A stretch of 13,888 nt of DNA, taken from contig MFSY01000003.1 in NCBI GenBank assembly GCA_001785175.1, positions 2,226 through 16,113 of the forward strand, given 5' to 3'. Below, one piece after another: positions 1 to 12,751 of this stretch (the stretch's first letter is position 1; each line of letters begins with the position of its first letter). The position numbers and the translations under genes are program-made. A model generated the notes under the pieces. The model did no database searches. It was not told where the DNA came from and saw only the letters and a program-made list of their open reading frames with translations. The DNA is from Candidatus Muproteobacteria bacterium RIFCSPHIGHO2_01_FULL_65_16. Its GTDB lineage: Bacteria; Pseudomonadota; Gammaproteobacteria; Acidiferrobacterales; Sulfurifustaceae.

Positions 1-958
1 CGCTGACGCCCTCCTTGACCTCCAGCCGGCCGGGGGCGGGCTTGAGCCGCTCCAGCCCGCTGCGGATCTCCGGCAACGCGGCGCCGGCCGCGAGCGCGGT
101 GGTGGTGGCCGCGAGTGCGTTCATGACGTTGTGTCGGCCCAGCAGTGATAGTCGCATATCAATTTCTCCGTGGTTGGTTATGAGACGGATGGCGCTGCCA
201 GCTGCGTCCAGGGCGTAGCGCGCGCTGACATCGGCCGGATTATCGAGGCCGAAGCTCAGACACCGGTGCGGCGCGGCCAGGCGCCGCCACAGATCGCAAT
301 ACGCGTCGTCGGCGTTGATCACCGCCACGCCGTCCTCGGTCAGGCCCGAGAAGATCTCGCCCTTGGCGCGCGCCACCTCCTCCACGCCGCCGAGCCCCTG
401 GAGGTGCGCCTCGGCGGCGTTGATGACGAGGGCGATGGTGGGGCGCGCCAGGCGCGTCAGGTACTCGATCTCGCCGCGGTGGTTCATGCCCATCTCGATC
501 ACGGCGTGGCGGTCGCCGGCGCACATGCGCAGCAGCGTCAGCGGCACGCCGATGTCGTTGTTGAGATTGCCCTGCGTCACGCAACCGGGCCCGGCCCGGC
601 CCAGGATCGCGCCGATCATGTCCTTGACCGTGGTCTTGCCGTTGCTGCCGGTGACCGCGACGACCGGGATGTCGAACTGCCGGCGCCAGAAGGCGGCGAG
701 CGCGCCGAGCGCGCGCCGCGTGTCCGCGACCAGCAGGTGCGGCAGCGTCGTCTCGACCCGGCGTTCGAGCAGCGCACCGGCGGCGCCGGCGGCGCTCGCC
801 TCGGCGAGGAAATTGTGGCCGTCGCCATTGGCCCCCCTGAGCGCCACGAACAACTCGCCCGCCTTGAGCGTGCGCGTGTCCGTGCCCACGCCGGTGAACT
901 CGGCGTCCCGACCCGCGAGCGGCGCCTGCAACACGTCGGCGAGGGCGGCGAGCGACAT
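1..958 (-). CDS. murF: UDP-MurNAc-tripeptide--D-alanyl-D-alanine ligase MurF (3' end missing)
   Basis: MurF adds D-Ala-D-Ala to UDP-MurNAc-tripeptide, the last cytoplasmic step in building the peptidoglycan pentapeptide precursor. The 319 visible residues cover the N-terminal domain, the ATP-binding central domain and the start of the C-terminal domain. The full protein is usually about 450 residues, so roughly 130 are beyond the left edge. Visible landmarks are the P-loop TGSNGKTT (residues 103-110), NLNNDIGVPLTLL (131-143), EMGMNHRGEIEYL (155-167), NAAEAHLQGLGG (180-191), the likely carbamylated lysine K199 in ARAKGEIF, and GRHNVMNALAA (274-284). The ATG at 958-956 shares its A with the murE TGA stop (TGATG), which supports translational coupling. 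Residues about 259-271 use AT-rich, rare-type codons unlike the rest of the gene. Identification is secure from motifs and dcw position. Confidence 0.97.
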   Translation of the reverse strand, partial: MSLAALADVLQAPLAGRDAEFTGVGTDTRTLKAGELFVALRGANGDGHNFLAEASAAGAAGALLERRVETTLPHLLVADTRRALGALAAFWRRQFDIPVVAVTGSNGKTTVKDMIGAILGRAGPGCVTQGNLNNDIGVPLTLLRMCAGDRHAVIEMGMNHRGEIEYLTRLARPTIALVINAAEAHLQGLGGVEEVARAKGEIFSGLTEDGVAVINADDAYCDLWRRLAAPHRCLSFGLDNPADVSARYALDAAGSAIRLITNHGEIDMRLSLLGRHNVMNALAATTTALAAGAALPEIRSGLERLKPAPGRLEVKEGVS

Positions 959-2523
959 CACGCCGCCTCCCCCAGCAGGCCGAGCACGGCGTCGCGGTCG
1001 CTGTAGGGCACGCGCTCGTCGCCGATCTGCTGATAGTCCTCGTGGCCCTTGCCGGCCACGAGCACGATGTCGGCGGCGCCGGCCTCGGCGAGGGCGGCGG
1101 CGATGGCGGCCCGGCGCCCGCGGATCACGCGCGCCGCGGCGCGCATGCCGGCGCGGATGTCGGCGATGATCCGCTCCGGCGGTTCGTGGCGCGGGTTGTC
1201 GTCGGTGAGCACGACGACATCGGCCAGGCGCTCGGCGATCCGGCCCATCTCGGGGCGCTTGCCGCGGTCGCGGTCGCCGCCGCAGCCGAAGACGCACCAC
1301 AATTTTCCCGCGGCGTGCTCGCGCAGCGCAAGCAGGATCTTTTCCAGCGCGTCCGGGGTGTGCGCGTAATCCACGACCACGAGCGGCAGCCCGCGGGCGC
1401 CGCCGAAACGCTCGACGCGCCCGGGCACGGGCCGCGCCCGGCTCAGGCGCTGCGCCGCCTGCCGCACATCCATGCCCAACGCCAGCAGGGTGGCGAGCAC
1501 GGCGAGCAGGTTATAGGCGTTGAAGCGCCCGTACAGCGGGCTTGCGAGCTCGCACGCGCCGGCGGGCGTGTCCACGCGCAGCCACAGCCCCTCGTGCGTC
1601 AGCCGGACCTCGCGCGCGCGCACGTCGCCGCCCTCCAGCCCGTAGCTCAGGGTCCGGACACGGCCGCCGATTCGCGCCAGCAGCCCGCGGCCGAAGTCGT
1701 CGTCCCGGTTGATCACGGCGTATTTCAGATCCGGCGCCTCGAACAGCCCCGCCTTGGAGGCGCCGTAGGCGTCCATATCGCCGTGATAGTCGAGATGATC
1801 GCGCGTGAGGTTGGTGAACACCGCCACCTGGAACGCCACCTTGTTCACCCGCCCCTGGTCGAGGGCGTGCGACGACACCTCCATGGCGACGTGGGTGGCG
1901 CGCCGGTCCAGGAATTCCTTGAGCAGCCGGTGCACCGTGACGGCGTCCGGCGTGGTGTGGATCGCGGCGTTGAGCGCGCCGGGAAAGCCGTAGCCGAGGG
2001 TGCCGATGACGGCGCAGCGGTACGCGTCGGGCGCGGGCTGCGGCATGTCCTCTTCTCCCTTCGAACCACCCTCACCCCGTCCCTCTCCCGGAGGGAGAGG
2101 GGGAGTCGGTTCGCTGATGCGGCCCATACCCAGTGCCTGCGCCAGCAGCTGGGTGCAGGTGGTCTTGCCGTTGGTGCCGGTGACACCGATCACGATCAGC
2201 GCGCGCGACGGCGCGCCGTGGAAGCGATCAGCGATCGTGCCGATGTGGCGCCGAAGGTCGCCGACCGCGAAGGCCGGCACCGGCGCCGCGCGCAGCGCGA
2301 AGCCGTCGCCCGCTTCGTACACGACCGCCGCCGCCCCGGAGGCGACCGCGTCGCCGATGAACTCGCGCCCGTCGGCGACCATGCCGGGCAGCGCCAGGAA
2401 CAGATCGCCCGGCGCGACCGCGCGGCTGTCGAGCCCGAGGCCCCGCAGCGCGCGGTCGTCCGCGGCCGGCACCGCGACCAAGTCCCGCAGCAGCTCGCGC
2501 AGCCGGCGCACGGGGGCGGCCAT
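958..2523 (-). CDS. murE: UDP-MurNAc-L-Ala-D-Glu--meso-diaminopimelate ligase MurE with an in-frame repeat insertion
   Basis: MurE is the cytoplasmic ligase that adds meso-diaminopimelate to UDP-MurNAc-L-Ala-D-Glu. The 521-residue product has the P-loop TGTNGKTT (115-122), MEVSSHALDQGRV (214-226), NLTRDHLDYHG (238-248), the likely carbamylated lysine K257 in YGASKAGLFE, GRFNAYNLLA (332-341), and DYAHTPDALEK (385-395). DNPR (442-445) is the known marker for meso-DAP rather than lysine specificity. The E. coli enzyme is about 495 residues. The excess of about 26 lies between the P-loop helix and the next strand (AVIGTLGYG): residues about 134-166 are rich in Pro, Gly and Glu and are encoded by a palindromic repeat (see 2050-2118). 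Every other motif is intact, so the gene looks functional. The ATG at 2523 shares one base with the ftsI stop, and the TGA at 960-958 overlaps murF. Confidence 0.97.
   Translation of the reverse strand: MAAPVRRLRELLRDLVAVPAADDRALRGLGLDSRAVAPGDLFLALPGMVADGREFIGDAVASGAAAVVYEAGDGFALRAAPVPAFAVGDLRRHIGTIADRFHGAPSRALIVIGVTGTNGKTTCTQLLAQALGMGRISEPTPPLPPGEGRGEGGSKGEEDMPQPAPDAYRCAVIGTLGYGFPGALNAAIHTTPDAVTVHRLLKEFLDRRATHVAMEVSSHALDQGRVNKVAFQVAVFTNLTRDHLDYHGDMDAYGASKAGLFEAPDLKYAVINRDDDFGRGLLARIGGRVRTLSYGLEGGDVRAREVRLTHEGLWLRVDTPAGACELASPLYGRFNAYNLLAVLATLLALGMDVRQAAQRLSRARPVPGRVERFGGARGLPLVVVDYAHTPDALEKILLALREHAAGKLWCVFGCGGDRDRGKRPEMGRIAERLADVVVLTDDNPRHEPPERIIADIRAGMRAAARVIRGRRAAIAAALAEAGAADIVLVAGKGHEDYQQIGDERVPYSDRDAVLGLLGEAA
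2050..2118. repeat. Palindromic repeat element inserted in frame inside murE
   Basis: The core is a perfect 9-bp inverted repeat, ccctctccc (2081-2089) and gggagaggg (2093-2101), around a 3-nt loop. A second pair of arms, cgaacc (2062-2067) and ggttcg (2108-2113), encloses it. The segment ccctcacccc lies beside the stem. I recall this kind of element, with CCCTCACCCC next to CCCTCTCCC/GGGAGAGGG arms, as a common intergenic dispersed repeat in proteobacteria. Here it is read in frame on the minus strand and encodes a Pro/Gly/Glu-rich peptide containing PLPPGEGRGEGG (MurE residues 142-153). Exact borders are uncertain: the extra residues relative to other MurE proteins span about 2030-2121. Confidence 0.8.
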
Positions 2524-6199: not shown

Positions 6200-6625
6200 G
6201 AGTCGGCCGGTAAGCCGGGTTCTGTCGTGGACAGCCATTCATCTGGGACGCGCGTCGCCGCGCGCCTCAAGCAGCCTACCCGGGAACGACGCGGGCACAC
6301 GCCAATGTTCCCCTATTCGGCCTTGCTCCAGGTGGGGTTTGCCGTGCCGCGGCTGTTGCCAACCGCGCGGTGCGCTCTTACCGCACCATTTCACCCTTAC
6401 CGGTCCTTGCGGACTTAGGCGGTATATTTTCTGTGGCACTTTCCATGGACTCGCGTCCTCCAGGCGTTACCTGGCACCCTGCCCAATGGAGCCCGGACTT
6501 TCCTCCCCGCACCTATCTCCCTGAGCCGTCCGTGAAACCAGAGCGATGTCTCTTCGAGGAGACGGCGCCACGGTCCGAGACAACGACTCAGAAAGATAGA
6601 TGCGGGGCGGCTGTCTGGCCGACTC
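6200..6625 (-). ncRNA. rnpB: RNase P RNA, bacterial class A
   Basis: This is the catalytic RNA of RNase P, which trims tRNA 5' leaders. The ends pair perfectly as P1: GAGTCGGCC (6625-6617) with GGCCGACTC (6208-6200). Conserved elements on the minus strand are GAGGAAAGTCCGGGC (6505-6491), GGCAGGGTGCCAGGTAACGCC, the P15 region AGGGTGAAATGGTGCGG followed by TAAGAGCGCACCG, GGAGCAAGGCCGAATAGGGG, CCGGGTAGGCTGCTTGAG, AGATGAATGGCTGTCCACGA and ACAGAACCCGGCTTA (6225-6211). The RNA is about 426 nt against 377 in E. coli. Most of the excess is an enlarged P3 arm (6507-6606). As I recall, rnpB also lies between mraZ and rsmI in Pseudomonas. Exact ends are inferred from P1 and the promoter. Confidence 0.97.
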
Positions 6626-6631
6626 AAAAGC

Positions 6632-6660
6632 ATTATACCAGTGAAATGGAGGAATGTTCC
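6632..6660 (-). promoter_or_regulatory. rnpB promoter with extended -10
   Basis: On the minus strand a perfect -10 TATAAT (6637-6632) is preceded by TGG, giving the extended form TGnTATAAT. The -35 is poor (GGAACA, 6660-6655, 17-bp spacer), as is common with extended -10 promoters. Six bases separate the -10 from G6625, the first base of the P1 helix, so transcription would start at or next to the mature 5' end. Confidence 0.85.
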
Positions 6661-6720
6661 CGCGGCCCTGGTGTCGCCATTCGCCCGCCGGCTGATGATT
6701 ATGGACACCGCCCATCGAAC

Positions 6721-6797
6721 TCACCGCAGAGGCGCAGAAACGCGGAGAAAAATCCTTATTGTCTCAATAACTCCGCGCCTCTGCGTCTCCGCGGTGA
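6721..6797. repeat. Long palindromic repeat between rnpB and the flippase-like gene
   Basis: Two 27-nt arms (6721-6747 and 6771-6797) are inverted copies with four mismatches, separated by a 23-nt AT-rich loop. The arms begin and end with TCACCGC and GCGGTGA and contain CGCAGAGGCG-type units. In a minus-strand transcript three of the four mismatches become U-G wobbles, so that strand folds better. I recall similar 'CTCTGCG...GCGGTGA' palindromes as widely dispersed intergenic repeats. It lies 34 bp past the stop of the minus-strand gene and could act as its terminator or mRNA stabiliser, but it lacks a clean T-run. Confidence 0.8.
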
Positions 6798-6830
6798 AAA
6801 TCATCCTTTCAGCAATTTTTCGAGGTTCCC

Positions 6831-11614: not shown

Positions 11615-12193
11615 ATGGCCCGCCGCCACTGGCCGCTCCCGCTGCTGCTGCTCGGCACGACCGCGCTCCATGGCTGCGCGCCGCTGGTGGTCGCCGGCGG
11701 CGCCACGGCGGTGATCGCGGCCCAGGACCGGCGCACCGTCGGCTCGTTCATTGACGACGAGACGATCGAATGGAAGGCCGTGACCGCCATCAACGCGGTC
11801 GAGTCGCTCAAGAAGGAAGTGCACATCAACGTCACCAGCGTGAACGGCACGGCGCTGCTGACGGGCGAGGCGCCGACGATCGAGCTGCGCGACGGCGTGC
11901 TCACCCAGGTCAGGGGCGTGCCGGGCGTGCGCCGCACCGTCAACGAGATCCGCATCGGTCCGCCGTCCACGCTCGCCGACCGCAGCAACGACTCCTGGCT
12001 GACCGGCAAGATCAAGACCAGGCTCGTGGGCGTGGAGAATCTGCAATCCGCGCAGATCAAGGTGGTCACGGAGAACGCGGTCGTCTACCTCATGGGTCTG
12101 GTGAAAAAAGACGAGGCGGAGTCAGCGACCGAGGCCGCGCGCCAGGTGGGCGGGGTGCAGCGCGTGGTGAAGCTCTTCGAGTACCTTGATTGA
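11615..12193 (+). CDS. dolP: Outer-membrane BON-domain lipoprotein DolP (YraP)
   Basis: DolP is a dual-BON-domain outer-membrane lipoprotein. In E. coli it binds anionic phospholipid, localises to division sites, supports envelope integrity and influences the BAM complex. The 192-residue product (E. coli 191) has a signal peptide ending in the lipobox LHGC, with lipidated Cys21, followed by a short hydrophobic Ala/Gly-rich stretch. The first BON domain is about 48-115 ([46 protein letters not shown]). The second is about 123-190 ([49 protein letters not shown]). The ATG follows the gmhA stop with no gap and GGGG is nearby upstream. The TGA overlaps the proposed TTG start of hldC. Confidence 0.95.
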
Positions 12194-12699
12194 CCGCCGT
12201 GGAGACCAAGGTCGTCACCGACCCCGGCCGGGAGCTGGCGGCGCGGATCGCGCGGCTGCCGCGCCCGATCGTCTTCACCAACGGCTGCTTTGACATCCTC
12301 CATCGCGGCCACGTGACCTACCTGGAAGAGGCCGCGCGCCTCGGCCGGAGCCTGGTCGTCGGCGTCAACAGCGACGTCTCGGTCGGACGCCTCGACAAGG
12401 GATCGGGCCGCCCGTTCAACGCGCTCGAAGACCGCATGGCCGTGCTCGCCGCGCTCGCGAGCGTGACGCTGGTGGTTCCGTTCGACGAAGACACGCCGCT
12501 CGCACTGATCAAGGCCGTGCGGCCGGACCACCTGGCCAAGGGCGGCGACTGGGCGCCGGACAAGATCGTCGGCGCCGAATTCGTGCGCGCCCACGGCGGC
12601 GCGGTGCACTCCATCCCCTTCCGCTACCAGCGCTCGACCACGGACCTGATCCGGCGCATCCGCTCATCACATGACAGGACGAACGAGCGCAGCGAGTAG
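12190..12699 (+). CDS. hldC: D-glycero-beta-D-manno-heptose 1-phosphate adenylyltransferase (RfaE2/HldC type)
   Basis: This enzyme adenylylates heptose 1-phosphate to ADP-heptose for LPS inner core. The 169-residue product corresponds only to the nucleotidyltransferase half of bifunctional E. coli HldE. It shows [19 protein letters not shown] (30-48) with the HxGH motif H38-R-G-H41, [13 protein letters not shown] (56-68), [17 protein letters not shown] (73-89), [11 protein letters not shown] (111-121) and the RSTTDLI end motif (148-154). The kinase half (HldA) must be elsewhere. The start used is TTG at 12190, overlapping the dolP stop as TTGA. GTG at 12199 is an equally reasonable start, and neither has a strong Shine-Dalgarno. 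The last nine or so residues (HDRTNERSE) are encoded by a repeat copy and look like an accidental tail. Confidence 0.92.
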
Positions 12700-12751
12700 G
12701 GCTTCCTTATCATGACAAGACGAACGAGCGACGCGAGTAGGGCATCCGTTA
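12670..12751 (+). repeat. 41-bp tandem duplication spanning the hldC stop and oxidase start
   Basis: Copy 1 (12670-12710) and copy 2 (12711-12751) are adjacent and differ at only a few positions. Both contain CATGACA-GACGAACGAGCG followed by a GCGAGTAGGGC block. Copy 1 supplies the last nine sense codons and TAG stop of hldC. Copy 2 supplies the ATG and first 13 codons of the following oxidase in another frame. The 41-bp period is not a multiple of three, so the two copies are read in different frames relative to the repeat. Confidence 0.9.

Follow-up and report, generated by a model that had tools for sequence, protein, structure and literature searches.

A BoxC-like palindromic motif in frame in murE, and its association with genes for Vsr-like DUF559 proteins

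Results

The window, by which we mean the whole stretch of 13,888 nucleotides that was analyzed, carries on its minus strand (958..2523) a murE gene encoding 521 amino acids, with Mur_ligase, Mur_ligase_M and Mur_ligase_C matches above their cut-offs. This gene is host to an in-frame insert, which together with its edges corresponds to MurE residues 133-167 (2023..2127, minus strand) and has no equivalent in most relatives. MurE was matched in 58 of the 60 genomes searched, and most of these proteins align with residues of about 1-132 and 168-521, leaving about 3 residues between the two parts; no segment shared by many distant relatives was found. When aligned to E. coli MurE, residues 131-169 stand opposite about 7 residues. 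The loop between GTNGKT and IGTLG measures 52 aa here, as compared to 20 aa in 13 of 17 same-family MurEs (the remaining four have 16, 25, 25 and 95 aa, the longest being that of G001, the closest relative), so that this MurE is longer than those of close relatives by 32 codons net. The first-pass annotation of this DNA was right in seeing an excess, which it put at about 26 residues over E. coli MurE.

At the core of the insert lies a hairpin, CCCTCTCCC-TCC-GGGAGAGGG (2081..2101), which corresponds to blocks 1 and 2 of the BoxC/TM motif and whose arms, at 2081-2089 and 2093-2101, are the perfect inverted repeat that the annotation had described, with a 9-bp stem and a 3-nt loop. The minus strand reads, from 2101 to 2069, CCCTCTCCC TCC GGGAGAGGG AC GGGGTGAGGG, where GGGGTGAGGG (2069..2078, minus strand) is the putative third strand of a triplex, judging from its sequence and from Table 1 of PMC4666352. 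Outer arms, CGAACC at 2062-2067 and GGTTCG at 2108-2113 by direct sequence reading, enclose the motif (2062..2113). These arms had also been pointed out and are indeed present here, but they are disrupted in G001 and were therefore left out of the family features.

The P-loop residues G116-T122 are invariant in an alignment of 34 MurE sequences, and the AlphaFold2 model based on this alignment (mean pLDDT of 86.3) compares to E. coli MurE (1e8c) with TM scores of 0.84/0.89. Residues 136-166 have a pLDDT below 50 and are found between the helix of residues 120-132 and the strand of residues 170-174, i.e., after the P-loop helix and before the strand that follows it, where the insert had been expected as an exposed loop. 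The insert peptide is predicted to be disordered and is apparently tolerated by the host. RNA folding of the 111-nt murE stretch gave an ordinary stability (z -0.63), and RNA structure as the cause of the insert was rejected, as no surplus stability was seen.

We defined the motif as CCCTC[TG]CCC - GGG[AT]GAGGG - G-rich third block (GGGGTGAGGG or similar) and searched this genome (G000), which is 1.7 Mb in size and represented by a 135-contig bin that is 79% complete. With up to 3 mismatches allowed, the hairpin was found at 56 places across G000 and the reversed-pattern control at 0, which is a genome-wide dispersal beyond chance and bears out the earlier suspicion of a dispersed repeat. Good hairpins, defined as pairing at 8 or more of the 9 stem positions, number 44 in the fetched G000 stretches and the window, and 41 of the 44 have a G-rich third block on one side (6/160 in control positions displaced by 300-400 nt). 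The motif fits BoxC/PIT/TM on both sequence criteria, namely, three blocks and many dispersed copies, and on this basis we assign the murE insert, with the same three blocks, to the BoxC/PIT/TM triplex motif. The likeness to the Rickettsia RPE elements, to which the annotation had pointed, is one of analogy only.

The fetched G000 stretches and the window contain at least 37 palindrome clusters, and 5 of these fall within the reading frame of a named gene, the four genes being murE, metG (two clusters), bioF and leuS, in support of the idea of repeated entry into genes. Open reading frames of at least 100 residues that overlap palindrome clusters number 55 in G000 or the window; the Pfam search covered 20 cluster-overlapping frames of G000, with murE being searched separately. 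Twelve close hairpin pairs were found in G000, with the third blocks facing outward in 8 and inward in 2. We also considered that the motif might be especially open in all frames, yet while 38/41 copies are open in 5/6 frames, among random 34-mers from the same stretches (n=3958), 1646 are open in 5 frames and 1191 in 6. The motif thus contains no special coding design, and this candidate was rejected.

Some observations on other repeated sequence should be recorded here. The G000 contigs C24, C39, C52, C65 and C42 end directly past a palindrome, and four of these contig ends share the identical onward sequence AACTGTGTTCCACGTCAAG..., pointing to a longer repeat joined to some copies. In the window, two 37-nt direct repeats that are 89% alike, with starts 41 nt apart, lie at 12670-12747, at the 3' end of the open reading frame 12190-12699. 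On the plus strand at about 6500-6830, beside a frame of 311 aa, a stretch translates into peptides such as NSPQRRRNAEK and SAPLRLRGE, and we take it, by its look, to resemble another dispersed repeat.

In metG of G000, two in-frame motifs enclose an in-frame DUF559 (Vsr-like nuclease) domain, located between the anticodon-binding and tRNA-binding domains and scoring 115 bits against PF04480 (cut-off of 20.6). The same motif-DUF559-motif arrangement is found in the same metG linker in G009, which belongs to another genus of the same family. The palindrome that G000 carries in bioF is bare and occupies the position at which G261, a distant genome from another family of the same class, carries a full DUF559 unit (in BLAST of this pair, residues 67-209 match 17-159 and residues 221-451 match 399-636); the two forms, bare and with DUF559, occupy one and the same bioF insertion site. 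In leuS of G000, the motif lies in frame.

DUF559 proteins (PF04480) are predicted to be Vsr-like PD-(D/E)XK nucleases. YcjD has been classified close to Vsr within the PD-(D/E)XK superfamily (PMC1189080, as far as accessible), and the one solved relative found, 3hrl, is titled 'Endonuclease-Like Protein'. According to the accessible part of PMC12907096, the Caulobacter DUF559 protein VsrA causes an SOS response in cells without a cytosine methyltransferase.

To describe the surroundings of DUF559 genes, 58 loci were fetched, 49 of which (19 from relatives and 30 from the sample of the class, Gammaproteobacteria) were placed by their FRRQ motif; the 9 of 58 not placed by this motif were excluded. 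As the loci were the best-scoring ones, a bias towards strong matches is possible. Stems with a score of at least 9, a few of which differ from the CCCTCTCCC kind, are found upstream in 37/49 and downstream in 35/48 loci (30/844 control windows), and pyrimidine-armed hairpins with a score of at least 8 are found upstream in 39/49 and downstream in 40/48 (control, 14/844), 33 loci having them on both sides. The upstream hairpins start 203-131 nt before the FRRQ motif and the downstream ones 233-306 nt after it, and the third strand points toward the gene upstream in 30/49 loci (solely outward in 1) and downstream in 32/49 (solely outward in 2), as compared to 7/576 in the control. Three of the 49 loci, one of them without a downstream window, presented no pyrimidine-armed hairpin in either window. 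The framing of DUF559 genes by palindromes is, accordingly, a direct observation.

Ten long DUF559 frames, picked by length from 15 fetched stretches, all contain another Pfam family in frame: two N6_N4 methylases, three hsdS specificity domains, two hsdM, one hsdR, one bioF and one DUF1156, with host domains flanking DUF559 on both sides in bioF and hsdR. Among the class-wide DUF559 loci L263-L273, in-frame units are common in genes for type I restriction-modification and other DNA methylases. As restriction-modification genes are often hosts, a defense role for DUF559 is still conceivable, and DUF559 may be cargo.

The number of motif copies in a genome goes together with the presence of DUF559. 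Among the 60 relatives, DUF559 was found in 12/13 genomes with at least 10 hairpins and in 7/47 others (Fisher p 4e-7, phylogeny ignored). In the class sample, where absence of DUF559 was called at E 1e-25, at least 10 exact hairpins were found in 21/57 genomes with DUF559 and in 8/217 without it (p 2e-10, phylogeny ignored), meaning that 8 of the 29 genomes with at least 10 exact copies have no DUF559 by this cut-off. One of the eight, G005, has 15 copies and presented no DUF559 even at E 1e-3, and an exact CCCTCTCCC hairpin is absent from 13/57 DUF559 genomes. It should be noted that the pattern with a 3-nt loop undercounts, as G005 yields 1 copy with it and 15 when loops of 2-6 nt are allowed.

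The DUF559 gene of E. coli K-12 is ycjD (1351407-1351760 of NC_000913.3), which scores 267.8 against NF007294 (cut-off of 218). Its stop codon falls within CCCTCGCTCTTTCAGGGAGAGGG, a BoxC-like hairpin that has decayed to two stem mismatches and has no third block. About 170 bp further on lies TMECO no. 9, directed away from the gene, while upstream of ycjD in K-12 no such hairpin was found. The ycjD stretch was matched in 3365/5426 genomes. In strain LH85-a, which is without ycjD, an efflux operon adjoins fabI instead, and the accessible part of PMC12817139 describes eefRABCD and ycjD as alternating at one place, ycjD being found where eefRABCD is absent; a clean empty E. coli site for ycjD was accordingly rejected, as the one strain in question, LH85-a, has the efflux operon there. 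In L280 (E. coli 2017-01-4CC), ycjD is annotated without its C terminus and about 106 bp are missing from the match; as a guess, this loss may have come about by recombination between the two BoxC-like hairpins there. By coordinates and strands, 4/5 inverted BoxC pairs of E. coli face inward (our own reading of Table 1 of PMC4666352).

We then considered the murE loop across the database, where 7471 MurE homologues passed the threshold. Among the 120 listed, the loop has 20 aa in 99 and 48-126 aa in 13, this MurE included, and the long loops carry peptides such as PLPPGEGRGEG or PSPARGEG. The motif was read at the DNA level in G000 and G001, and its presence in the other long loops is suggested by these peptides. 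In a tree of 150 MurEs built with the loop excluded, the distribution of the 17 long-loop rows requires 16 changes, with well supported branches forcing at least 13 of these; for shuffled labels, the average is 16.3. When referring to these numbers, it should be considered that P0105 (37 aa), which counts among the 17, lacks a recognizable motif peptide and that two others, P0002 and L047 (the G001 murE), are apparently from one species. The murE loop is a hotspot, with long loops scattered over the tree.

In G001, murE carries three in-frame motif copies at the same position as in G000, with copies one and two forming tandem units of 75 bp that are 97% alike, and the database protein P0002, near-identical to the G001 MurE, carries two. 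An essential gene thus likely differs between the two by a copy number of 25 codons. Four other MurEs have an insert peptide that shares 84-92% identity with that of P0011, and in three more the identity is 43-58%. Filled and empty murE sites coexist in close relatives: with the loop left aside, P0093, one of the four at 84-92%, shares 98.7% identity with an empty MurE, and P0122, whose insert is 58% identical to that of P0011, shares 98.8% with another. No broad tract of co-conversion is visible around filled murE in this protein-level comparison. We read the murE inserts as repeated arrival, in part through lateral transfer of one insert, and the loop as a tolerant site that is perhaps also preferred.

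Discussion

In E. coli, knowledge of BoxC/PIT elements goes back to the 1990s. The motif, formerly BoxC or PIT and now TMECO, was described as consisting of three blocks (Holder et al. 2015, PMC4666352), and this study reports that it occurs in E. coli and in more than 260 bacterial genomes and that E. coli copies adopt an intrastrand triplex in solution. In its accessible part, the E. coli copies are said to be always intergenic, no mobility activities were found nearby, and the mechanism and origin are described as unanswered. The elements considered here are similar in having the same blocks, in being dispersed and in sometimes forming inverted pairs, but they differ in that they also lie in frame in essential genes and are tied to DUF559.

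We consider it fairly probable that the murE insert is a non-autonomous BoxC/PIT/TM copy in an exposed loop, that palindrome-DUF559-palindrome is the autonomous form, and that nicking or cutting by DUF559, followed by repair, spreads the element. A complete unit would consist of a palindrome, DUF559 and a second palindrome, with the third strands directed inward. DUF559 would recognize the motif, perhaps in single-stranded DNA folded as a hairpin or triplex, or else the empty target, and would nick or cut the DNA at palindromes or target sites. Repair from a filled copy would then spread the element, whether as a complete unit or as a bare palindrome. Bare motifs, such as BoxC and the murE copies, would be non-autonomous derivatives, and in-frame genic copies would be the survivors of selection, having landed in frame and in a loop. 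A DUF559 gene framed by palindromes may, accordingly, be the mover of palindromes; its recognition, cutting and movement are steps that we infer, and in the genomes compared we observed neither movement nor excision nor a target duplication. We are evenly divided on the broader proposal that BoxC/PIT palindromes are the ends of an unrecognized class of mobile elements with a Vsr-like DUF559 enzyme, whose units home in frame into metG, bioF and hsd loops and of which the E. coli BoxC and the murE inserts are MITEs. The close hairpin pairs of G000 are oriented mostly outward, opposite to DUF559 units, and are therefore not simply units without the gene; this orientation, together with the arrangement at ycjD, makes our best explanation slightly less likely.

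The main competitor, to which we assign a minor though not negligible chance, is that DUF559 is a passenger, in which case palindromes would spread otherwise (by replication slippage, host repair or an unknown enzyme), and DUF559, perhaps a nuclease of defense or mismatch repair, would be carried between two of them. The orientation of the G000 pairs agrees with this, as do the 8/29 copy-rich genomes without DUF559, the units that lie in frame in methylase genes, hsdS, hsdM and hsdR among them, and the functional tie of the Caulobacter DUF559 protein to a cytosine methyltransferase (PMC12907096, accessible part). A passenger does not, however, readily account for the narrow range of distances and the inward direction of the palindromes around DUF559, for the co-occurrence of DUF559 with copy number, or for the one bioF site that is shared by the bare and the DUF559-bearing form.

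As for murE itself, a single old insertion, inherited vertically and lost many times, seems improbable to us. Several MurEs do contain similar insert peptides, and the insert lies at the same position in G000 and G001, as would be expected from such a history. Nonetheless, the nearest empty MurEs of ten filled ones read ALDQPPRR or similar, with no visible remnant, and the long-loop rows are scattered like shuffled labels. Moreover, the G000 and G001 inserts share a run of 49 identical bases while the adjoining 120-nt flanks are 83% and 73% identical, which fits recent spread better than age.

It is very doubtful that we are dealing with a classical REP of the GTAG type, mobilized by a RAYT (Y1) transposase. 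Intragenic REPs are known in several species (PMC3733652, accessible part), and G000 contains two Y1_Tnp matches above the cut-off; the block adjoining the stem is, however, GGGGTGAGGG and the GTAG tag is absent. The presence of Y1_Tnp also does not go together with copy number, being found in 11/13 of the relatives with at least 10 hairpins and in 32/47 others (p 0.31, phylogeny ignored; 60 relatives), with G007 having 57 copies and no Y1, G010 having 33 and none, and G036 having 0 copies and 16 Y1_Tnp, and RAYT was rejected as the main mobilizer. Least credible of all is an assembly artefact of metagenome bins, since even though G000 is a fragmented and incomplete bin with several contig ends near such repeats, the gene is in frame on both sides of the insert, the protein cluster that carries the insert comprises 7 sequences, and long loops are found at the same place in jgi, ncbi, ena and lgn proteins.

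Homing endonuclease elements include inteins and the intron homing nucleases, among them the Vsr-related EDxHD enzymes. They place a nuclease gene at one site in a conserved gene and give rise to filled and empty alleles in close relatives, as here, although here the palindromes and the nuclease remain in the reading frame. The REP/RAYT systems of the GTAG and CGTC superfamilies are also short dispersed palindromes that occur in pairs, are sometimes intragenic, are presumably mobilized by an enzyme and can flank its gene (PMC3733652, accessible part), yet tag and stem are different, and in our case a PD-(D/E)XK nuclease is flanked rather than a Y1 transposase. The Rickettsia RPE, as described in the same source, are palindromes that lie in frame in genes and add peptides, a likeness of description in another lineage. 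YcjD/DUF559 and VsrA are assigned to PF04480, PD-(D/E)XK and the relatives of Vsr in the accessible parts of PMC1189080 and PMC12907096, which contain no tie to palindromic repeats. Among the open-licence papers listed in our literature searches, none was found to link DUF559 to BoxC/PIT, and such a link may be in print elsewhere; in the 2015 triplex study (PMC4666352), DUF559 and YcjD have 0 occurrences. The association of the palindromes with DUF559 would thus be a new link, while intragenic REPs were known before (PMC3733652, accessible part).

The first-pass annotation had seen in such inserts a source of new surface peptides. This holds as a consequence. The more specific result is a family that looks mobile, with DUF559 as its candidate enzyme and with murE offering a perhaps preferred site. 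When annotating essential proteins, one should take into consideration that peptides of the PLPPGEGRGEG type can be element-coded. As the framed nuclease gene has a relative in E. coli K-12, ycjD, the mechanism and origin of BoxC become testable. In bioF and metG, nuclease units are borne inside the reading frame, and, to judge from the murE hotspot, an essential enzyme is changed by such elements time and again in nature.
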